Positions 1,101 to 23,710 of a stretch of 64,000 nucleotides of DNA are shown here, in pieces. The position numbers and the translations under genes are program-made. Source of the stretch: a bacterium (lineage in GTDB: Bacteria > Actinomycetota > Acidimicrobiia > Spongiisociales > Spongiisociaceae); the NCBI GenBank assembly GCA_026710435.1, contig JAPOQZ010000244.1, positions 1 to 64,000 of the forward strand, given 5' to 3'. The notes below the pieces were generated by a model. The model searched no databases, was not told the DNA's origin, and saw only the letters and a list, made by a program, of their open reading frames with translations. Numbering within the stretch: the first letter of the stretch is position 1; each line of letters starts with the position of its first letter.

Positions 1101-1874
1101 TCACCAGGTAGGCCGGCTGAGTACGCCGCCGTCCACCACCAGGTTGGTCCCTGTGACCCAGCGGGCCAGGTCGGAGCAGAGGAAGACGCAAGCGTCGCCT
1201 ATGTCCTCCGGTGTACCGAGCCTCCCCATCGGGCATGCGTCCCGCCAGCGCCGGACGCCCTCCGGCCAGGCTGAGACTATCCCGGGGCGGGTTATCAGAC
1301 CGGGCGAGACGGTGTTCACCCGGATGCCCGCAGGCCCGTACGCGAGTGCCGCTGCCCGGGCGTGCATTATGAGCCCGGCCTTGGAAACCGAGTAGTGCCC
1401 GTGGCCCGGCGCCGGATTGGTGCCCTCGATCGACGAGATATGGACGACCGACCCACCCCTGCCTCCGGAAACCATGGCAGAGGCAGCCGCCTGGGTGAGA
1501 CGGTGGACCGCGGTGAGGTTGGTGTCGATCATTTCCGACCATTCCCCATCGGTGAGGTCCGCGAAGGGCGCCACCGGTTGGATACCGGCGTTGTTGACGA
1601 GCGCGTCCAAGCGACCGAGATTCTGCACGACCATCTCAACCAGTTCACCCGGACCGTCGGCCGTGGTGAGGTCGGCTACCACTCCGGCCAAGGGCTCCCC
1701 GCCCCGATCGCGCAGGTGGCTCACCGGCGAGGAGCGAGTGTGCGCTACCACCGTGGCGCCGGTGGCCACCAACCGGCGGGCGATTCCGGACCCGATGTTG
1801 CCGCCGGCACCGGTGACCACCACAACCCGGCCGGCGAGGTCGACCATCTCGGCAGGAGAGGGAAGGTCACTCAT
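1101..1874 (-). CDS. Short-chain dehydrogenase/reductase (SDR)
   Basis: A 257-residue classical SDR. Visible are TGAGGNIG at about residue 20, NNAG, the active-site Ser in HISSIEG and the catalytic YSVSK. The start MSDLPS was chosen because AGAGGAG lies 6 bases upstream; longer reading would run into repeat R1. It is the first gene of a probable two-SDR operon with 308-1090. Both are FabG-like but are clearly different proteins, not a recent duplication. Substrate unknown. The promoter region is largely occupied by repeat R1 (1914-2019), which begins only 39 bp upstream of the start codon. Confidence 0.85.
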   Translation of the reverse strand: MSDLPSPAEMVDLAGRVVVVTGAGGNIGSGIARRLVATGATVVAHTRSSPVSHLRDRGGEPLAGVVADLTTADGPGELVEMVVQNLGRLDALVNNAGIQPVAPFADLTDGEWSEMIDTNLTAVHRLTQAAASAMVSGGRGGSVVHISSIEGTNPAPGHGHYSVSKAGLIMHARAAALAYGPAGIRVNTVSPGLITRPGIVSAWPEGVRRWRDACPMGRLGTPEDIGDACVFLCSDLARWVTGTNLVVDGGVLSRPTW

Positions 1875-1913
1875 TACTTGCTCCTCTCGGTTGTTCGCGC
1901 CCGGGACAGGGGA

Positions 1914-2019
1914 CCAGGAGGGTACTGAGCAATCCACCAGCGCCTGCCAGGCGCCGACATGCTTCCTGGGTTGGCGGGCGACAGGCCCGAGCAACCGTCA
2001 CTGTTCAGCACCCTCCTCG
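1914..2019 (-). mobile_element. MITE-like repeat R1, copy 1 (degenerate)
   Basis: Inverted copy of the R1 element, with ends CCAGGAGGGTACTGAGCAAT and ATTGTT-type TTCAGCACCCTCCTCG. The terminal inverted repeats are slightly decayed compared with the copies at 6212, 59449 and 63446. Its right end (CTCG, from CTAG) is shared with the left end of repeat R2 at 2016. Confidence 0.75.
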
Positions 2020-2126
2020 GGCGCGTTCACGCTGTACGCAGTCGTAACGGTACCGCGGGTCCTGTGCATCGGCGGTGGCGGTCCAGAGCACGCCGCCCGC
2101 AACGCAGACCGACCACGATCGAACTA
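2016..2126 (+). repeat. Dispersed repeat R2, copy 2
   Basis: Starts CTCGGGCGCGTTCACGCTG and ends GACCGACCACGATCGAACTA, nearly identical to 171-310 at both ends. The final CTA is the TAG stop codon of the minus-strand cupin gene at 2124-2570. It is fused at its left end to repeat R1. Confidence 0.75.
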
Positions 2127-2570
2127 CTCCCTAACGTAGCCGGGGATCCGGTCGGCGGCAGCCGGGTACCGGCCCATCAGTTCGACCGCTTCGCCCAGCT
2201 CGAATCCCTCCTCGCGGTAGGGCGGGGCCATGGTGGCGCCTACCAGTGACCAGGCACCCGCTGTCCGAGCTCCCATCCACACACCGGCCCGTACCGCCAC
2301 GCATGGTCGTTCCCCTGCGGCCAGATCGTCACCGAGCACGGGGGCCTGCATGCCACCTTCCGGCTCCAGCAGCAGCATCTCCACCGGGTCCCCCGCGTAG
2401 TGATGCCATAGTTCCGCCGCGTCGAGACGGTGCAGCGCCGAGAAGTCGCCGGGCTGGAGGAGGTAGTAGATACCGCTTCCATGCTCGTCCTGCCAGGTGC
2501 GCGCCCACATCCCCCCTTCCTCGGGAAGCGGCAACAACCCGAGCAGAGCGACCACTTCGGCGCCGGTCAC
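2124..2570 (-). CDS. Cupin-superfamily protein (DUF985 type)
   Basis: A 148-residue protein matching the small DUF985-like cupin family, with recognisable segments YYLLQPGDFSALHRL, ELWHHYAGDP and the C-terminal GATMAPPYREEGFELG. Cupins of this family are beta-barrel proteins of poorly defined, possibly sugar- or nucleoside-related function. The start is a GTG whose GTGA overlaps the TGA stop of the upstream amidohydrolase, so translation is coupled. This suggests a role linked to that deaminase, but the role is not known. The TAG stop is the first triplet of repeat R2. Confidence 0.8.
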   Translation of the reverse strand: MTGAEVVALLGLLPLPEEGGMWARTWQDEHGSGIYYLLQPGDFSALHRLDAAELWHHYAGDPVEMLLLEPEGGMQAPVLGDDLAAGERPCVAVRAGVWMGARTAGAWSLVGATMAPPYREEGFELGEAVELMGRYPAAADRIPGYVRE

Positions 2571-3871
2571 CCGGCCAGCCGCCTCGCCCGTCGCACCATC
2601 TCGGACCGCACCGACGAGGTGTCGATCGAGATCACCCGACCGTCCTCGACCACCTGGCGTCCTCCCACCCAAACCGACCGGACTGCTCTCGGCGATCCGG
2701 ACCAGACGACTCGGGCGACCGGATCGTCCTCGCCGGGGATCACCGGATGCAGCGCCGGCTCGGAGGCCGATACCTGCACCATGTCAGCCCGCGAACCGGG
2801 AGCGAGGCGCCCGAGGTCGGCACGGTCGATGCAGTCGGCAGCTCCGGCGGTGGCCATATGGAGAGCTTGCTGGGCCGGGAGGACGCCGGCGTCTCCTGCT
2901 TTCTGGCGCGCGAGGCGGATCGCCATCCTCATCTCCTCGAACAGGTCGAGGCGGTGGTGGGACGCAGGCCCGTCGGTGCCCAGACCCACCCGGACACCTG
3001 CCTCTGTCAGGTCCAGCACTCTCGCCACGCCGGAGCCGTGCTTGGAATTCGAACACGGGCAGTGGGCCACCGCCACCCCGTTCCGCGCCAGGGTCTCGAT
3101 GTCATCGTCCGACATCCAGACGGCATGGGCAGCCAGCGCCCTGCCTTCCAGAAGTCCCAGTGACTCGAGGTACGCAGGCGCGGACATCCCGGACCGGCCA
3201 CGCACCGCACTGTCTTCCCATTCCTGCTCTGCCACATGGATGTGTACCAGCATGCCCGTCTCGGAAGCGATCTCAGCGATCCGCCGGAGGCACTCGTCGG
3301 ACAGCGAGTAGGCGGCGTGGGGACCCAGACCCACCTCGATCAGATCGTTCGACGCCCAACGCTCCCGGGTGGCCACCATTTCTTCCAACTGCCCCTCCCA
3401 GGTGCCGAACCTGTCAAGCTGCGCATCCTCGATCACCGGAGCGGTCACCAGGCACCTCAGGCCGGCGCCTGCCGCGCCTCTCGCCACGGCGTCTCCGTGG
3501 AAGTACATCTCGACCGAAGTGGTAATCCCGTTGGCGAGCAACTCCGCGGCGCCGGCCTGCATCCCGACCCGTACGTCCTCCGGGGTCAGGCGACCCTCCC
3601 GGGGCCACATGACCTCGTGCAGCCAACGGTCGACGGGCAAACCCTCCCCGGCTCCCCTGAGCAGGACCATCGGCGTGTGGCAGTGGATGTTGACCATTCC
3701 CGGCATCAGGATGCCGTCGATGCGGTGAACCGTTGCGTCGCCGCGGTCGGGTGCTCCGGAAGCCGGCCCCGACCAGACAACCCGTCCCCCGTCCACATCC
3801 ACCACCCCGTCCGGGATAGGACTCTGGTCGCCGGACATGGTCAACAGCAGGTCTGCTCGGTAACGCTCCAT
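2567..3871 (-). CDS. mtaD: Amidohydrolase, probable 5'-methylthioadenosine/S-adenosylhomocysteine deaminase
   Basis: A 434-residue amidohydrolase of the TrzA/MtaD group. Metal ligands are visible as HCH (residues 63 and 65) in MVNIHCHTPM, a later His in HIHVAEQ, another in AHAVWM and the Asp in GLGTDGPAS. These bind a divalent metal that activates water for deamination. The family converts MTA to methylthioinosine and SAH to S-inosylhomocysteine, but also includes other aminohydrolases. The MTA/SAH assignment rests on family resemblance and on divergent transcription with mtnA only 62 bp away. A GGAGACGAAG site precedes the ATG. Coupled to the downstream cupin by a 4-base overlap. Confidence 0.8.
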   Translation of the reverse strand: MERYRADLLLTMSGDQSPIPDGVVDVDGGRVVWSGPASGAPDRGDATVHRIDGILMPGMVNIHCHTPMVLLRGAGEGLPVDRWLHEVMWPREGRLTPEDVRVGMQAGAAELLANGITTSVEMYFHGDAVARGAAGAGLRCLVTAPVIEDAQLDRFGTWEGQLEEMVATRERWASNDLIEVGLGPHAAYSLSDECLRRIAEIASETGMLVHIHVAEQEWEDSAVRGRSGMSAPAYLESLGLLEGRALAAHAVWMSDDDIETLARNGVAVAHCPCSNSKHGSGVARVLDLTEAGVRVGLGTDGPASHHRLDLFEEMRMAIRLARQKAGDAGVLPAQQALHMATAGAADCIDRADLGRLAPGSRADMVQVSASEPALHPVIPGEDDPVARVVWSGSPRAVRSVWVGGRQVVEDGRVISIDTSSVRSEMVRRARRLAG

Positions 3872-3933
3872 CTTCGTCTCCGTTTCGGACTTTCCAGTAC
3901 CTTAGAATCGGTAACCGGACCGGGGAGACAATC

Positions 3934-4986
3934 GTGCAATCGCTAGGAGGCCGTTCACTCGACTGGGTTGACGGGGCCGTCCTCATGGTCGACCAGACCC
4001 GGCTCCCCGACTCGTACGAGACGCTGCGAATCGAGTCGGTACCCGACATGGTCGCGGCCATCCGCCGCCTGTCCGTACGGGGCGCCCCCGCGATCGGGGT
4101 GGCAGGAGCTCTGGGGGTTGTCTTAGCAATGCAGGCTCATGGCACATCGGGCGAAGGACTCGACTCCGCCGTCGCCTTCCTCAGGCAAGCCCGCCCCACC
4201 GCGGTGAACCTGGCGCGCATGGTGGACCGGGTTGCAGCCTTAGCCGGGCAGGGTATCGACCGGGCCTTACGGGAGGCCCTGCGCATTCGGGACGAGGAGA
4301 TCGCCGCGTCGATATCGATGGGCGAGTACGGAGCCGACCTGGTCTTGGAACTCGTCAACAAGCCCAGCGCTCGGGCCATGACCATCTGCAACACCGGCGG
4401 GCTGGCCACGATAGAGCGCGGCACGGCACTAGCGGTGATCCAGACCCTGCATGAGCGGGGGTCTCTTGCGGAGGCCCTGGCCCTGGAGACCAGGCCCCTC
4501 CTTCAAGGCGCTCGCCTCACGACCTGGGAACTCGGCCGGATGGGCGCTCCGCACCGTCTCCTTGTGGACTCGGCGGCTCCGTTCATGCTGGCCCGGCGCC
4601 AAGCAGACGTGGTACTCACAGGCGCCGACCGGGTCGCCGCCAACGGCGATACCGCCAACAAGATCGGGACCTTCTCCCTGGCCCTGGGAGCGCGCAACGC
4701 GGGGGTTCCATTCATCGTGGTGGCACCCGAGTCGACCCTGGACTTCGAAACCCCCGACGGTCAATCCATACCTATCGAGGATCGGGATGGCGACGAGGTG
4801 GTGTCTGTCCGGACCGCAACCACAGCCCCGGAGAACACTAGGGCGGCCAACCCGGCCTTCGACATCACGCCGGTCTCGCTGATAACCGCGATAGTTACCG
4901 ATAGGCGGGTAGTCCGTTTGGATAGGGGTGATAACCTGGACTCGGTTCCGCTCGGTGAGTTGCGCTCGCCACATGCTGAGCTGTGA
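3934..4986 (+). CDS. mtnA: S-methyl-5-thioribose-1-phosphate isomerase
   Basis: A 350-residue MtnA of normal length. It isomerises methylthioribose-1-phosphate to methylthioribulose-1-phosphate in methionine salvage. Diagnostic motifs are RGAPAIGVAGALG, the catalytic-Cys segment ICNTGGLAT, TGADRVAANGDTANKIGT (active-site Asp) and the C-terminal NPAFDITP. The GTG start is preceded by GGGGAGA. Divergent from the deaminase at 2567-3871. No MTA phosphorylase gene is adjacent, so phosphorolysis must come from elsewhere; the phosphorylase at 16968 is one candidate. Confidence 0.95.
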   Translation: MQSLGGRSLDWVDGAVLMVDQTRLPDSYETLRIESVPDMVAAIRRLSVRGAPAIGVAGALGVVLAMQAHGTSGEGLDSAVAFLRQARPTAVNLARMVDRVAALAGQGIDRALREALRIRDEEIAASISMGEYGADLVLELVNKPSARAMTICNTGGLATIERGTALAVIQTLHERGSLAEALALETRPLLQGARLTTWELGRMGAPHRLLVDSAAPFMLARRQADVVLTGADRVAANGDTANKIGTFSLALGARNAGVPFIVVAPESTLDFETPDGQSIPIEDRDGDEVVSVRTATTAPENTRAANPAFDITPVSLITAIVTDRRVVRLDRGDNLDSVPLGELRSPHAEL

Positions 4987-17951: not shown

Positions 17952-18626
17952 GTGAACGTCGACGATGAACGTCGGGGCGAGGAATCGGTCGAGTCTGGAG
18001 TCCCAAGGGCCCGCGAGGCACGGATGTCACCTACCCGATTAGCAGTCAATTGGACAGGTAACGAGACCGAACTCTTGGACGCCGCGGCATCCATAGCAGC
18101 CCGGCATAGGGCGTTGAAGGGCCAGGAAGTTCGCCTGCAGGGATTTCTGCGTCTGCTCACGATTCGAGGCGATCTGGCGAAGAAGCTGGGCGGCGAGCCG
18201 CTCGATGTGCTGGATGGCTTCGAGCGGACAGTTGCTGCGGGTGCCTACTTGCAGGGCGAAGCGATTCGGACGATTTGGGCCGAGCCGATGCTGAAGGCCA
18301 AGGACACCGCTGTGGCGCTCGGGGTACGCGCAACGAATCGTGAGAAGGTCCGGAGGTTACGCCAACGGTCGGCGATCCTGGGGCTGCCACACGGAAACGG
18401 ATTCCTGTACCCGGCGTTCCAGTTCGACTCCCTTACACGGGACGTCTTCCCCGAAGTACGGTTGGTCAACAAGCAACTGGTAGCCGTTGACGACCCGTGG
18501 GGTGTCGCTTCGTGGTGGATGTCCCGCCACTCTCGACTCGGTGCGCGGCCCGTCGACCTCGTGGGGACAGACCGGGGGAATACCCTCGTAGCGATCGCCA
18601 GAGCTGCGGTGGAGCCTCTGGGATAG
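17952..18626 (+). CDS. Antitoxin of a RES-type toxin-antitoxin pair (MbcA/Xre-like)
   Basis: A 224-residue protein directly upstream (7 bp) of a RES-domain toxin. The middle has a helix-turn-helix-like stretch (DTAVALGVRATNREKVRRLR). The C-terminal WGVASWWMSRHSRLGARPVDLVG resembles the toxin-binding end of MbcA/DUF2384 antitoxins (W..T.N..LGGR.PLDLL). It probably binds the toxin and represses the operon through the 17860-17890 site. The start could be GTG 17952 or ATG 18024; neither has a strong ribosome site. It is longer than mycobacterial MbcA, so the N-terminal 100 residues are an unassigned addition. Confidence 0.75.
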   Translation: MNVDDERRGEESVESGVPRAREARMSPTRLAVNWTGNETELLDAAASIAARHRALKGQEVRLQGFLRLLTIRGDLAKKLGGEPLDVLDGFERTVAAGAYLQGEAIRTIWAEPMLKAKDTAVALGVRATNREKVRRLRQRSAILGLPHGNGFLYPAFQFDSLTRDVFPEVRLVNKQLVAVDDPWGVASWWMSRHSRLGARPVDLVGTDRGNTLVAIARAAVEPLG

Positions 18627-18633
18627 CCTCCGA

Positions 18634-19299
18634 ATGTCTCCCAATCAAGAGCCACCCAAGAGTTACGAAGGCACGCCCGCGTATCTGTTGGTTCCAGCTA
18701 GAACAAGATTGACAAGGATATATAGCGTCCAGTTTGGTGTCACCGAGTTCAATCCGACAGTTGCCAAGAGCCCCTTTGCGGGAGGGCGTTTCGATGCCAA
18801 CGAAAACGACGAGTACGCCTTCCTGTACGCTGCCGACGATGACAGAACAGCCATCTCGGAAGCTGTTCTGCGCGACCTCCCGATCAATGAGCGGGGTGCA
18901 CGCCTACTCCCCAGGGCCAGATTCTCCGGTCTCAAGATCAGTTGGCTGGTCACAAACCTGGACATGCAATTGGTCTCCCTCCGCTCCGGTGAGGACCTGG
19001 CGTCGGTTGGACAGGATGCATGGCTTACCGTCGCTCCGCCAACTGAGTATCCGGTAACGCGCCGCTGGGCTTCGGCGATCCGGACTTGGGCGCCCGAGGC
19101 TGCGGGCCTGACATGGAGGTCGCTTCGGGAACCCGCGGGCTTCGCTTTCGTATTCTTCTCCGATCGCTGCGAGCGTGGCGCGTTTGCCGAGTCCCGGGAT
19201 GACCTACCCGTACCAACCGGTGAGCAGGAGATGGACGCTGGTCCGGCTCGTGTCTACGTGGAGGAGATACTCGTTCGTTACCGGGTTGCGCTCATGTGA
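18634..19299 (+). CDS. RES-domain toxin
   Basis: A 221-residue protein with the RES family layout: an Arg in RIYSVQFG, GRFD (the GGR.. segment), YAADDDRTAISEAVLRD and a later Ser/Glu-containing region. RES toxins such as MbcT degrade or ADP-ribosylate NAD-linked targets and stop growth. Co-transcribed with the antitoxin upstream. The coding sequence is less GC-biased than its neighbours, in keeping with horizontal acquisition. It ends 13 bp from the converging acetate kinase gene. Confidence 0.8.
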   Translation: MSPNQEPPKSYEGTPAYLLVPARTRLTRIYSVQFGVTEFNPTVAKSPFAGGRFDANENDEYAFLYAADDDRTAISEAVLRDLPINERGARLLPRARFSGLKISWLVTNLDMQLVSLRSGEDLASVGQDAWLTVAPPTEYPVTRRWASAIRTWAPEAAGLTWRSLREPAGFAFVFFSDRCERGAFAESRDDLPVPTGEQEMDAGPARVYVEEILVRYRVALM

Positions 19300-19312: not shown

Positions 19313-20497
19313 TCATTGATGGATCAGATCGGCCGTGTCACGGGCTATGAGCAACTCCTCGTCGGTGGGGATCACCCAGATGTCTGTGGTACTTCTGCCG
19401 GTAGAGATGCGCCTTTCTCCGTTGCCCCGGTTGCGGGATCCGTCAACGACCAGGCCGAGGCTCTCCAGACCTGCCAGGACGAGTTGGCGGACCTCGTGGC
19501 TGTTCTCCCCGATGCCACCCGCGAAGACCACCGCATCGCAGGGCGCCGCCTGTACCAGAAAGGCACCCAGATACCTCCGAATCCGGTGTACGAAGGTCTC
19601 CACCGCCAGGCTGGCGGATGGATCACCGGCTCGGGCACACTCGGAAACCCGCCGGAAGTCAGGGGAATCCCCGCTCAGACCCAGGAGGCCTCCCTTCCTT
19701 TCCAGACCCTGCCGGATCTCGGATGCCGGTAGTCCGGATTCCAGTAGATGGAATACCACCGCCGGATCGATGTCTCCGCTGCGGGTGCCCATCACCAAAC
19801 CCTCCAGGGGGGTCATGCCCATAGAGGTGTCCACCGCCTGCCCATCCCGGACCGCGCAGGCGGACGCCCCCGCGCCAAGATGGAGGGTCACCAGGTTGGG
19901 CCGGGGTTTGTCCAGCAGTAGGGCCGCTCTTTCGGCCAGGTACCGGTGGCTTATGCCGTGGAAGCCGTAGCGCCGCACTCCGAATTCTTCCCACCAACGA
20001 GCGGGGACCGCATACCGGTAGGCGTGAGGAGGGAGGGTCGAGAAGAAGGCCGTGTCGAAGACCGCCACCCCCGCGGCTCCGGGCAGAAGCTCGCGTGCCG
20101 CCCGGATTCCCGCCAGGTTGGCCGGGTTGTGGAGCGGGGCAAGGGTCTCCAGAGATTCGATCGCCTCGATCACCGCGCGGTCGATCACCGTCGACTCCGA
20201 GAAACGGTCACCGCCGTGCACGACACGGTGGCCTACTGCTGCGATCTCGGCCGGGTCGGTGATCGGTGGGGGCGACCCCCATTCTGTGAGCGCCTCGACG
20301 AGCCGGGATACCCCCTGGTCGTAATCACCGACCTCCGTCTCGGTCGTGACACGCCGGTCAGCGGCACGGTGGCGATGCGTCAGCCGCTTACCACCGATGC
20401 CTTCGATGACTCCCACCGCCAGGGTCTCTTCCGCTCCACGCCCGAACAGCTTGTACTTGATGGACGAACTGCCGCAGTTGATCACCAGTATCCGCAT
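19313..20497 (-). CDS. ackA: Acetate kinase
   Basis: A 394-residue AckA that interconverts acetyl phosphate plus ADP and acetate plus ATP. Motifs are VINCGSSSIKYKLF (N-terminal phosphate site), HRVVHGG, DTAFFSTLP (active-site Asp), YGFHGISHRY, LHLGAGASACAV, DTSMGMTPLEGL and the C-terminal FAGGIGENS. The start is the ATG before RILVIN, preceded by AGGG. It is the last gene of an operon behind the UGSC selenoprotein (49 bp gap) and its thioredoxin-fold partner. No phosphotransacetylase gene is in the window. The context suggests the acetyl phosphate may come from the upstream selenoprotein system. Confidence 0.95.
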   Translation of the reverse strand: MRILVINCGSSSIKYKLFGRGAEETLAVGVIEGIGGKRLTHRHRAADRRVTTETEVGDYDQGVSRLVEALTEWGSPPPITDPAEIAAVGHRVVHGGDRFSESTVIDRAVIEAIESLETLAPLHNPANLAGIRAARELLPGAAGVAVFDTAFFSTLPPHAYRYAVPARWWEEFGVRRYGFHGISHRYLAERAALLLDKPRPNLVTLHLGAGASACAVRDGQAVDTSMGMTPLEGLVMGTRSGDIDPAVVFHLLESGLPASEIRQGLERKGGLLGLSGDSPDFRRVSECARAGDPSASLAVETFVHRIRRYLGAFLVQAAPCDAVVFAGGIGENSHEVRQLVLAGLESLGLVVDGSRNRGNGERRISTGRSTTDIWVIPTDEELLIARDTADLIHQ

Positions 20498-20546
20498 CGG
20501 AACCCTGCCGTTGTCCATCAAGACCAGGACCGGTATGCGCCTGTGG

Positions 20547-21059
20547 TTAGACCGTCAGCGCTCCGATTATCTCGGGGAAAGCCGCTTCGGCGAGCGCCCG
20601 CATCTCCGCGTCGGTGCGGTCCTGGATCGGATGGCCGGTGAGCACCCGGCGGGGGTGCATGCCCAGGGACTGGCCCTGAGCCTCGGCCGCCTGAGCAAAG
20701 CGATCCGACGCCACGAACACGCCTGGCACACCGAGGTCCTCCAGATCGACTATGTCGTGCACACTGCACGACGCGCATGACCCTCAGTCGGCCAGTGCTT
20801 CGATCACCGCCCCGCACTCGGCCGCGATCTGGCGTCGTAGGTCCAGTGGCGCCGGCTTGGTGAACGTGGGCTTGCGGTAGTGCCGAACCGACACCCCGCG
20901 CTCGGCCAGCAACTCCTCGAGCCTGCTGATGAACACGTCGCCGCGCGGTTTGGAGATGTCCAGAAGGGCGACCGTCCCCTGGGTGAGATCGGGGATCCGG
21001 GGGCTCAGGCGCCGCTCGTGGGTGGTTCTTTCGCTGGTCGGGTCCAACAATGTCGTCAT
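20547..21059 (-). CDS. UGSC-family selenoprotein with in-frame UGA (Sec92)
   Basis: A continuous 171-codon frame interrupted once by TGA (20784-20786). Reading that UGA as selenocysteine gives a 170-residue protein with the motif U92-G-S-C95-A-S-C98 after EALAD. This matches the UGSC family, and its UxxCxxC pattern is the one seen in glycine reductase protein B. Sequence on both sides is of family type: KPRGDVFISRLEELLAERG before, and VDLEDLGVPGVFVASDRF and HPIQDRTDAEMR after. A hairpin begins 11 bases after the UGA. The start ATG has AGGGGAG upstream, 9 bp after the thioredoxin-fold gene. Predicted cytoplasmic redox catalyst; substrate unknown. Standard annotation would split it into two false small ORFs (21059-20784 and 20762-20547). 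Confidence 0.9.
20754..20772 (-). promoter_or_regulatory. SECIS-like hairpin for selenocysteine insertion
   Basis: Reading the minus strand from the UGA at 20786-20784, 11 bases (GGGTCATGCGC) are followed by GTCGTGCA-GTG-TGCACGAC, a perfect 8-bp stem with a GUG loop. Bacterial SECIS elements lie within the coding region just after the UGA and need a small apical loop containing GU for SelB binding; spacing to the loop here is 19 bases. The match in distance and loop is good; function is inferred. Confidence 0.75.
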
Positions 21060-21068
21060 CTGGCTCCC

Positions 21069-22511
21069 CTAGTAATCGATCGCAACGGTGGTCATCTCCG
21101 AGCCGGTCCTACCACCAACCCAGCCTGAGATTATCGCAGAGAACATCCCGGCGTCGCCTCCGGCGTGAACCAACCAGAGACCTTCCGGGCCGAACTTCGA
21201 AATCTCCGCCTTCTTGTCCGCCAACCAGCCAGGCATGCCCTCGGCCACCCCGCCCGCGCCGGCCACCATCTCCGACGTAGGGAAGGTGAGCAGCGAGTGC
21301 ATCTCCTGGCGGATCCGGTCCTTCGTCCATCCTGCCTCCCAGAACACCCTCGCATGCTCGGGAGAGACCACCACGATCGCTTCGGACATGCCGGCCAGCT
21401 TCGGATGCGCAACCATGCGCAACTGCAGGGCGAGAGTCCTTGCGAGGGCTTCGGGACTGCGGGCCTTCTGGTCGATTATCTCGAGCGGTCCGTGCCCGGC
21501 GAACAGCGTGACGGTCGACTCGTCCGGCGAGAAGCCCCGCTCGACGGCGAGCGACTCCCATGGCGAACCTTCCTCGTCCTCGGGGAAGCAGAAGGATAGC
21601 TTTCCGGGGTTGCCGAACGTCGCCTGGTCTACTCCTCCCGGTCGGGCACCACCGACGTTGCGGACCACCAGGTTGAATGCTCGGCCGATGGTGAGATTGG
21701 CCCGGTTGCCCTGACCGAGCGCGTTGATCCCCGAGTTCATCCCGATCACTCTTCGGACCGGCCCGTTGACTATCAGTACCGGACCCGTGAAGTAGGTGGT
21801 GGCCGAGATCCCGTGGATGTTGAAGGCGGTCCCGGCAGCCGCCTCCACGGCAGCGAGCACGACCGGCAGGTATTCGGGCCGGCAGCCGGCCATCACCGAG
21901 TTGATCGCGACCTTCTCCACGGTGCATTCGGCCAGGTCGGGCGGCAGAGTGCAGAGCACATGGTCAGCAGGGAGACGGGTACCCTCCAGCATCCTGGCAA
22001 CCCGTTCCTCGGTGGGCGGGACAACCGGAAGACCGTCCGTCCATCCCCGGGCGAAGGCCGCCTCGATGGGATCCTCCGAGGCGCCAAGCCCCACCCTGCG
22101 GGAGGACATCGGGTATGGCGAGTGGCGCCGGAGGAGTCTCTCGTAGGTCTCGGGGAGCATCGTGTCCGAACCGCATCCGGGGCGCTGAGCCGGAAGTCCC
22201 CGGCCCAGATCGGTCGCATCAGCCACCCGCTCCCATCCGTTCCTGTCCCATCCGACCTGCTGGTCGACCGCCTCTCCGCCTTCAATCCGGTAGATCGTGG
22301 GCGTCGTCTCGGTAGCGAGATGCCACGAGATGTCCAGTGCCCGGTCGTGGATCACGTCGAATCCGTCCGGGAAGTCGGCCCGATCCTGGGAAACGAGCGC
22401 AAGGGGTCCATCTCCCGAGGAGAGTTCGTCCAGTACGGGCACCACCAGATGGCAGGTCTCGCAGTCGTCCTTGACCACCACCAGCAGTCCGTCAGCGATA
22501 GGTAGGCTCAT
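21069..22511 (-). CDS. Thioredoxin-fold fusion protein, partner of the UGSC selenoprotein
   Basis: A 480-residue protein in two parts. Residues 1-110 look like a thioredoxin fold with the redox motif Cys17-Glu-Thr-Cys20 and the cis-Pro segment TTPTIYRI. Residues about 120-480 form a conserved domain I cannot name, with segments WTDGLPVVPPTEE, KVAINSVMAGCRPEYLP, NSGINALGQGNRANLTIGRA and FAGHGPLEIID. It has conserved Cys residues (CTLPPDLAEC, AGC). The ATG follows GAGGGG. It leads the operon with the UGSC selenoprotein 9 bp behind and ackA after that, so it most likely recycles or co-catalyses with the selenocysteine. Confidence 0.75.
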   Translation of the reverse strand: MSLPIADGLLVVVKDDCETCHLVVPVLDELSSGDGPLALVSQDRADFPDGFDVIHDRALDISWHLATETTPTIYRIEGGEAVDQQVGWDRNGWERVADATDLGRGLPAQRPGCGSDTMLPETYERLLRRHSPYPMSSRRVGLGASEDPIEAAFARGWTDGLPVVPPTEERVARMLEGTRLPADHVLCTLPPDLAECTVEKVAINSVMAGCRPEYLPVVLAAVEAAAGTAFNIHGISATTYFTGPVLIVNGPVRRVIGMNSGINALGQGNRANLTIGRAFNLVVRNVGGARPGGVDQATFGNPGKLSFCFPEDEEGSPWESLAVERGFSPDESTVTLFAGHGPLEIIDQKARSPEALARTLALQLRMVAHPKLAGMSEAIVVVSPEHARVFWEAGWTKDRIRQEMHSLLTFPTSEMVAGAGGVAEGMPGWLADKKAEISKFGPEGLWLVHAGGDAGMFSAIISGWVGGRTGSEMTTVAIDY

Positions 22512-22582: not shown

Positions 22583-23590
22583 TCATGCGGCCCGCTCTGC
22601 GAGCAGGTTGACGACGAGGCGGACCATCAGGTCCTTGCCTCGCGGCGCGCTCTCTGCGATGAGCAGGGTCAGCGCGGTGAGCGCTTGGGGATTGAGCCGA
22701 TGCTCCACGCCCTCTTGTTCGAGATAGAGCAGGAACAACAGCGAGCCGATGCGCTTGTTGCCGTCGGTGAAAGGATGGTCCTTCACCAGGAAGTAGAGCA
22801 GGTTCGCGGCCTTCTCCTCCCGCGAGCGGTAGAGCGGCTCGCCGAACATGGTCTGTTCGACATTGCCGAGAATGCCTTTTAGCGCGTCACCGCGCGGATT
22901 GCCGAAAAGGGACGATGCTTCGCCCCGCGCAGCCAACTCGCGCTTGAAGTCAGCGATAGTCCCGACGGCGCGGTCGTAGTCCAGCGCGCTCCTGGCCGGT
23001 TTGGCATCGCCCGGCACGGCCAGCCGATCTTCGTCGAACTCCAGGAGCAGACGCCAGGTGTCGGCGTAACCAGAGATGAGATCCAGCACGGCCCGCCCGG
23101 TCGCGTCCACCAACGCCTGGTTCCGAAGCGTCCGGGCCAGGAGATCCAATGTCTCACGCGCCTCGCTCAGACCGCGCTCGGCAAGCCGACGCTCGTTCAG
23201 CGTGTAGCCGCGGACCAGATGTTCGCGCAAGGTGCGCGTGGCCCACCGACGAAAGTCCACAGCCCGCTTCGAGTTGACTCGGTAGCCCACAGAGATGATG
23301 GCGTCGAGGTCGTAGTGCCTGATGCGGCGCCTGACCCGTCTCCCGCCCTCAGATCGAACTACTAAGAAATCCTTAGTAGTTGCCTCCGCGTCCAACTCCT
23401 CGCTGGAAAACACATTCCGGAGGTGCATCAGTACGTTCTCGGGCGTGGTATCGAACACGTCGGCCATCTGCCGCTGGGTCAGCCAGACCGTCTCCCGGCC
23501 GAGGCGGACATCCACGCGCACTGCGCCGTCCGGGGCCCCGTAGACGACGATCCCCCCACCCGGGGACTGTTCATCCCTTGTGTCGCTCAT
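22583..23590 (-). CDS. RhuM-type virulence-associated protein fused to a Fic/DOC domain
   Basis: A 335-residue fusion. Residues about 15-150 are RhuM-like (VWLTQRQMADVF, ENVLMHLRNVF, TTKDFLVVRSEGGRRV, YDLDAIISVGYRVNS, FRRWATRTLREHLVRGY). Residues about 200-330 form a Fic domain with the full catalytic motif HPFTDGNKR (His272 to Arg280). Fic enzymes usually AMPylate target proteins. No separate antitoxin gene is adjacent, and no clear inhibitory (S/T)xxxE(G/N) helix was identified. The start MSDTRDE was chosen over longer options because similarity begins there. It lies 71 bp upstream of the UGSC operon on the same strand. Confidence 0.85.
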   Translation of the reverse strand: MSDTRDEQSPGGGIVVYGAPDGAVRVDVRLGRETVWLTQRQMADVFDTTPENVLMHLRNVFSSEELDAEATTKDFLVVRSEGGRRVRRRIRHYDLDAIISVGYRVNSKRAVDFRRWATRTLREHLVRGYTLNERRLAERGLSEARETLDLLARTLRNQALVDATGRAVLDLISGYADTWRLLLEFDEDRLAVPGDAKPARSALDYDRAVGTIADFKRELAARGEASSLFGNPRGDALKGILGNVEQTMFGEPLYRSREEKAANLLYFLVKDHPFTDGNKRIGSLLFLLYLEQEGVEHRLNPQALTALTLLIAESAPRGKDLMVRLVVNLLAERAA

Positions 23591-23710
23591 AGCTCGGGAT
23601 CGTACCTTGCGGATAGGACAGCCTGACACAACCATCGCCGCACACGACCCCGAAGGCACCGGGAATCGACCCTTGCCTTCGCATCGCGGCACAGTAGTTC
23701 CAAGCACCGC

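Follow-up and report, generated by a model that had tools for sequence, protein, structure and literature searches.

A UGSC-family selenoprotein and its near-constant partner gene as a candidate two-component selenoenzyme

The DNA analyzed here, a 64,000-nucleotide stretch of an actinomycetotal metagenome-assembled genome (MAG) that we call the window, holds a minus-strand frame of 171 codons (final TAA included) whose sole internal stop is a TGA within the motif ADUGSCASCS. The locus raises the question of whether this UGA is read as selenocysteine (Sec) and, if so, what the full-length protein does together with the genes beside it. A previous reading made from the letters of the window alone (the sequence-only reading) had described a 171-codon frame broken only by this TGA, with coordinates that proved exact. 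The features needed for the argument are the following.

20547..21059, minus strand: UGSC-family selenoprotein gene, 170 residues with predicted Sec at position 92 (Pfam and NCBIfam matches, predicted fold)
20784..20786, minus strand: in-frame TGA, the U of U-G-S-C-A-S-C, very likely Sec (Sec machinery in the genome, Cys in four relatives, purifying selection downstream)
20754..20772, minus strand: SECIS-like hairpin, 8-bp stem with GUG loop (place conserved in relatives, energy alone unremarkable)
21069..22511, minus strand: partner gene, 480 aa (predicted thioredoxin-like domain with CETC at C17-C20, Cys113, core of ~330 aa with invariant C210)
19313..20521, minus strand: acetate/propionate kinase gene (ackA), directly downstream of UGSC on the same strand

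The translation of the frame matched PF24696 in Pfam (E 1.9e-41, 142.5 bits against a cut-off of 25) and NF041046 (UGSC_fam) in NCBIfam (144.4 bits, cut-off 125), in both cases over most of its length, which confirms by two curated cut-offs the family identity claimed from the sequence alone. At E 0.001 the protein had no Pfam match besides PF24696, and thus none to PF07355. Residues 92-95 read UGSC; positions 92, 93, 95 and 98 are invariant in all 74 aligned rows (TGA read as C, three of 76 relatives left out), and S94 is kept in at least 90% of them. The UGSC search model was built from 84 motif-bearing matches. The family (seleno)protein was described in 2008 (PMC2398784), and a 2026 review (PMC13188914) credits the description to its own reference 60, both sources being cited throughout for the parts of their text available to us. 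The window selenoprotein is a new member of this already known family.

Decoding of the UGA as Sec is very likely on the sequence evidence. The sequence-only reading had predicted selA, selB, selC and selD in this genome, and had named the absence of selB and selC as what would speak against it. All four were found in the MAG (4.9 Mb in 270 contigs, 95.26% complete, 7.62% estimated contamination), each above its curated cut-off: selA (427.2 bits) and selB (344.9 bits) adjacent on contig C124, selD (374.9 bits) on C88 and tRNA-Sec (73.7 bits, anticodon TCA by ARAGORN) on C237. Because these contigs are not the one that carries UGSC, a contaminant origin of the Sec genes keeps some residual weight. 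The selD gene (L016; G000:C88:2731-3657) has one in-frame TGA of its own, and its product is probably a selenoprotein as well. In three other loci (L081, L083 and L116, at about 1820-4850) selA and selB, both above cut-off, immediately precede the partner gene on its own strand, with UGSC itself seen in L081 and L116, which links the Sec machinery to the UGSC/partner pair.

Purifying selection acts on the part of the gene beyond the UGA. Against four close relatives, dN is 0.054-0.115 vs dS 0.53-1.84 downstream of the UGA, and 0.130-0.159 with dS 0.59-1.31 upstream of it. Homologues remain conserved in this region, where dN is well below dS. The first codon of the motif is TGA in 76 of 76 complete motifs among loci L048-L127 (80 loci), and Cys occupies the site in four distant relatives (L018, L032, L035 and L036) whose frames are continuous, so that the claimed alternation of Sec and Cys was found. 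Termination at the UGA, with two short proteins as the products, is hardly credible: open frames of 91 aa and 71 aa do flank the TGA and the hairpin taken alone is unexceptional by energy, but the genome has the Sec machinery genes, the Cys homologues run uninterrupted across the site, the low downstream dN holds against all four relatives, and the TGA is kept in every complete motif of L048-L127. The sequence-only reading had expected automatic annotation to call two truncated frames; NF041046 is named '(seleno)protein', so NCBI annotation may already handle the gene.

A SECIS-like hairpin lies just 3′ of the UGA, as looked for in bacterial selenoproteins. Its arms GUCGUGCA/UGCACGAC form a perfect stem of 8 bp around a GUG loop and start 11 bases past the UGA, a geometry that agrees with the previous description. 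The folding energy gave z = -0.52 in the window, with 57 of 200 dinucleotide shuffles and 651 of 3000 codon-preserving randomizations folding as well or better. The exact 8-pair stem arises in 1307 of 100000 codon-preserving randomizations, and some stem of at least 8 pairs nearby in 1462 of 20000. Thus, the hairpin in the window alone is not remarkable, and conservation is what lifts it. Among 98 Sec-type sequences found, 89 were aligned (nine were identical to a kept row over 45 bases) and the statistics cover 83 distinct sequences, or 664 cells, of which 95.0% are paired; shuffled columns still pair at 93.1% because the stem columns are so conserved, and part of the stem follows from the protein sequence, in which the residues SCSVHD are conserved. 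Two-sided changes occur at four of the eight pairs, in 10 cells vs a shuffled mean of 1.7 (reached in 0 of 500 shuffles), and in L020 and L029, where Trp replaces the last motif Cys, the opposite arm of the stem has changed to match. Additional pair types do not stand out from the shuffles (90 of 500). Slid stems pair at 58.3% or less, with a similar covariation score for the +2 slide (0.102 vs 0.097). The four Cys homologues keep 4, 1, 4 and 3 of the 8 pairs, other stems of 6-8 pairs being possible. The SECIS-like reading of the hairpin is thus upheld by its conserved place and some two-sided changes, but not by its energy.

The upstream gene is a near-constant partner of UGSC. Its stop codon and the UGSC start codon are 9 nt apart, and neither Pfam nor NCBIfam gave a match to its product, even when the threshold was relaxed from E 0.001 to E 1. 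A search of genome contigs for the partner returned at least 586 relatives, of which the best 80 were kept as loci. UGSC is present in 77 of these best 80 (69 downstream on the same strand, eight divergent) and lies within 300 nt of the partner in 73, the distance being larger in L061, L068, L111 and L114; in L052 the contig ends before the UGSC motif. Two of the three loci without UGSC (L064 and L083) end at or within ~120 nt of the partner end, and L120 is the true exception among the best 80. Seen from the side of UGSC, PF24696 has 37 matches in 24 of the phylum's 296 genomes, counting that of the window (22 above cut-off), and 30 of these matches were fetched as loci first. The partner stands beside UGSC in 25 of the 30, the window's own copy (L037) counted, and in L038 and L039 the two share one reading frame, as fusions, the UGSC part of L039 being seen by Pfam only (29.2 bits) with no match to the rebuilt UGSC model. 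The remaining unpaired loci are below the family cut-off (L040, L041) or near a contig start (L047). Two of the seven other matches were fetched later, one of them paired (L158) and one fused (L164).

Some copies have a layout of their own. L158 (G000:C42, 1916-4994) is the second UGSC copy of the window's genome; it has the motif DUATC and lies behind a partner core matched at positions 146-357 only and a YibE/F-like gene. In L165 (G136:C25, 2361-4109), a UGSC-partner fusion, visual inspection shows Met at the Sec/Cys position (GDMGTSS), which makes a redox role of this copy doubtful. L080 (135-6934) holds three partner-like stretches in a row, and one of its overlapping frames has a second site resembling U-G-S-C. 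A UGSC fusion with a domain named Unknown_1 is mentioned in the available text of PMC2398784, and Unknown_1 could be the partner described here.

No third general neighbor was seen among the best 80 of the at least 586 partner relatives. The partner's own cluster covers 78 of these 80 loci, a 15-locus cluster resembles the UGSC start, and the largest other cluster is sufB in 12 of 80 (one member confirmed). The ackA frame starts ~25 nt past the UGSC stop. Of these 80 loci only L048 has ackA next to the pair, as the window does; acetate kinase was for this reason rejected as a general part of the system. Elsewhere in the window, a gene with RhuM-type and Fic/DOC domains (22583-23707, minus strand), which had no match in the fetched loci at 1e-10, lies directly upstream of the partner. 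At 17952-19299 on the plus strand a 224-aa gene without a family match is followed by a RES-domain gene, a layout that we take to be that of a toxin-antitoxin pair.

The AlphaFold2 model of the partner (mean pLDDT 90.3) starts with a thioredoxin-like domain that contains C17xxC20; C113 sits in the linker and C210 in the core. None of these four Cys varies across the 72 rows of the alignment, in which TGA counts as C and which leaves out eight of the 79 relatives available besides the window. Searched against the PDB, the partner profile hits thioredoxins (best E 2.6e-4), and other members gave weak matches to thioredoxin-type models along with a few at chance level. In distant relatives the match is confined to the core and does not include the thioredoxin-like domain, which makes the core the constant companion of UGSC. 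Two assignments of the partner were tried and rejected: a class I fumarase relationship, to which a weak Foldseek match pointed (7xky, E 4.9e-3), reached only 0.1% in hhalign with a profile holding only 7 of 25 fetched fumarases, and a GrdB-like or GrdE-like nature found no support in profile comparison (0.9% and 0.1%). At E 0.001 Foldseek returned nothing from the PDB for the whole partner model, and a PDB sequence search with the single partner protein gave nothing meaningful.

The C113 site carries an in-frame TGA in 9 of 94 partner copies and Cys in 82, where the 94 copies are 93 distinct ones with the window partner counted twice (window and L037). The three others fall outside the search pattern: Cys is present in L076, and this part of the protein is missing from L077 and L116. 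The nine loci with TGA comprise, judged by their record titles, six from Actinomycetota and three from Betaproteobacteria (L101, L105, L106, L108, L112, L122, L094, L107 and L117), and each has a predicted hairpin downstream of the resulting PG-U-GS site. Judging from these reading frames, the partner may act in these lineages as a second selenoprotein. Among the 119 selenoprotein families tabulated in PMC13188914, as far as its available text goes, none could be matched to this form.

The UGSC model (mean pLDDT 93.0) has five strands alternating with helices, with U92 just before a helix, and the predicted fold is Rossmann/flavodoxin-like, not thioredoxin-like. Its top PDB fold matches are a TIR domain, flavodoxins and other Rossmann-type proteins, with TM-scores of 0.52 or less, and no thioredoxin occurs among the 50 matches considered of 1816 at E 10. 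A viral fold library gave no informative match, and PDB sequence searches with the single UGSC protein and with the UGSC profile gave nothing meaningful. A thioredoxin-like fold was suggested for UGSC in PMC2398784 and repeated in PMC13188914, in the text of both available to us; it is not supported by the predicted model.

Profile comparison points to GrdB. In 15 full-length GrdB-like proteins of the phylum, U-G-T-[GS]-T-R-C stands just past the end of the PF07355 match. The UGSC profile (101 sequences) matched these 15 at 64.7% (score 39.3, shuffled maximum 24.1) and eight short GRDB-C proteins at 84.3% (score 42.6, shuffled maximum 28.3), after four and three loci, respectively, had been dropped as cut or truncated. 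Against the joint GrdB-like profile hhalign gave 94.6% with a score of 58.7, whereas 150 column shuffles did not exceed 21.7 and the reversed profile reached 21.8. Unrelated profiles remained low (partner 0.4%, class I fumarase alpha 0.6%, GrdE-like 3.0%). The similarity is confined to about 62-78 columns at the Sec motif, and shared Cys columns help it. We read the Sec halves of UGSC and GrdB as remotely homologous. No relative turned up in the PDB when one GrdB-like protein served as the sequence query. According to the available text of PMC13188914, GrdB of glycine reductase binds the substrate, has the UxxCxxC layout, and is said to interact with GrdA through this motif.

The window's genome also holds glycine-reductase-type genes of its own. 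On G000:C141:80000-91310 (L159, L193) and G000:C265:1-9000 (L160) there are a GrdA gene with an in-frame TGA and two GrdE-like/GrdB-like pairs. The GrdB-like gene of C141 has its TGA in a UGTGTRC motif and adjoins the binding protein of a peptide-type transporter. A glycine/sarcosine/betaine-type reductase looks unusual in this genome.

We propose that UGSC and its partner form a selenol/thiol reductase of two proteins, whose substrate would be a small molecule. The full-length, 170-residue Sec form of UGSC is probably one half of a two-protein enzyme whose other half is the product of the upstream gene. The proposal builds on the computed Sec frame, Sec machinery, pairing, fusions, Cys/TGA exchange at both sites and remote likeness of the UGSC Sec half to the GrdB Sec region; complex formation, the electron path and the chemistry are what we infer. 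The partner would take electrons from the cell's thioredoxin system via its own CxxC thioredoxin-like domain and relay them through Cys113 (putatively Sec in some relatives), while its core domain would bind the substrate. The selenolate of U92 would then attack a substrate carbon, as has been proposed for the selenolate of the PrdB subunit of D-proline reductase. C95 and C98 of UGSC would act as resolving thiols, and the product would be released by reduction. The GrdB-type layout of UGSC, coupled with the built-in thioredoxin-like domain of the partner, suggests a reductase that is complete in itself. Two or three UGSC matches, with some fragments among them, occur in several genomes, and multiple copies would fit different substrates.

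Two other accounts of the pair have to be weighed against this reductase. UGSC could be a general thioredoxin-type thiol/selenol oxidoreductase with the partner as its thioredoxin-like electron donor, an option suggested by the UxxC motif, by the match of the partner profile to PDB thioredoxins (best E 2.6e-4) and by the published placement of UGSC among thioredoxin-fold proteins, as far as the available text goes. We consider it unlikely, since the confident UGSC model is a five-strand alternating beta-alpha fold with no thioredoxin among its 50 considered matches of 1816, although at TM-scores of no more than 0.52, and distant partner relatives match in the core without the thioredoxin-like domain, so that the core is the constant companion. 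Less probable still is that the pair, in this lineage, feeds acetyl- or acyl-phosphate to the downstream acetate kinase in an energy-conserving route like that of glycine reductase. The closeness of ackA on the same strand fits such a route, as do the GrdA gene and the two GrdE-like/GrdB-like pairs in the same genome, but beyond the window ackA stands beside the pair in just one of the 80 loci. The two-protein reductase of UGSC and partner is the account that we carry forward.

It is important to separate what was known from what is new. The UGSC selenoprotein family is known; in the 2008 ocean survey (255 sequences) it was among the commoner selenoprotein families in aquatic metagenomes (PMC2398784), and the available text of the 2026 review (PMC13188914) lists it among predicted families with functions largely uncharacterized. 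What appears new is the near-constant partnership, the possible Sec form of the partner and the kinship of UGSC with GrdB; apart from the Unknown_1 fusion, which may involve this partner, the UGSC literature in the text available to us yielded no mention of the partner gene, of its possible Sec form or of a GrdB link. The sequence-only reading had brought up neither the partner gene nor the link to GrdB. The partner, the natural fusions and the GrdB kinship turn UGSC from an orphan into a two-protein system for co-expression, which can be screened against GrdB- and PrdB-type substrates. The results also argue against the suggested thioredoxin fold of UGSC, and the partner copies with TGA at the C113 site point to a possible new Sec-coding family. 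We lean slightly towards regarding UGSC and its partner as a new class of two-component selenoenzyme, distant kin of GrdB/PrdB with another substrate-binding subunit and present in many phyla, in which the partner would be an uncatalogued second selenoprotein (PG-U-GS) in some lineages.

Compared with the UGSC family (PF24696/NF041046), the window protein has the same Sec motif and is a member with no difference in kind. As regards thioredoxin (TIGR01068, PDB thioredoxins), the N-terminal domain of the partner family is alike, CxxC included; however, the likeness is limited to about the first 97 of 480 partner residues, and the core is matched without this domain in distant relatives. With GrdB and PrdB (PF07355), the Sec subunits of glycine, sarcosine, betaine and D-proline reductases, UGSC shares a Sec that is followed by a stretch containing E-x-x-G-[IV]-P, with a UxxCxxC layout where the 15 GrdB-like sequences have UGT[GS]TRC. 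Unlike GrdB and PrdB, UGSC has no PF07355 match at E 0.001; it counts 170 aa vs ~430 aa in GrdB and resembles the latter in the Sec half only. Unlike in the glycine-reductase set, its partner is not a GrdE-like pro-protein (0.1% against the GrdE-like profile).
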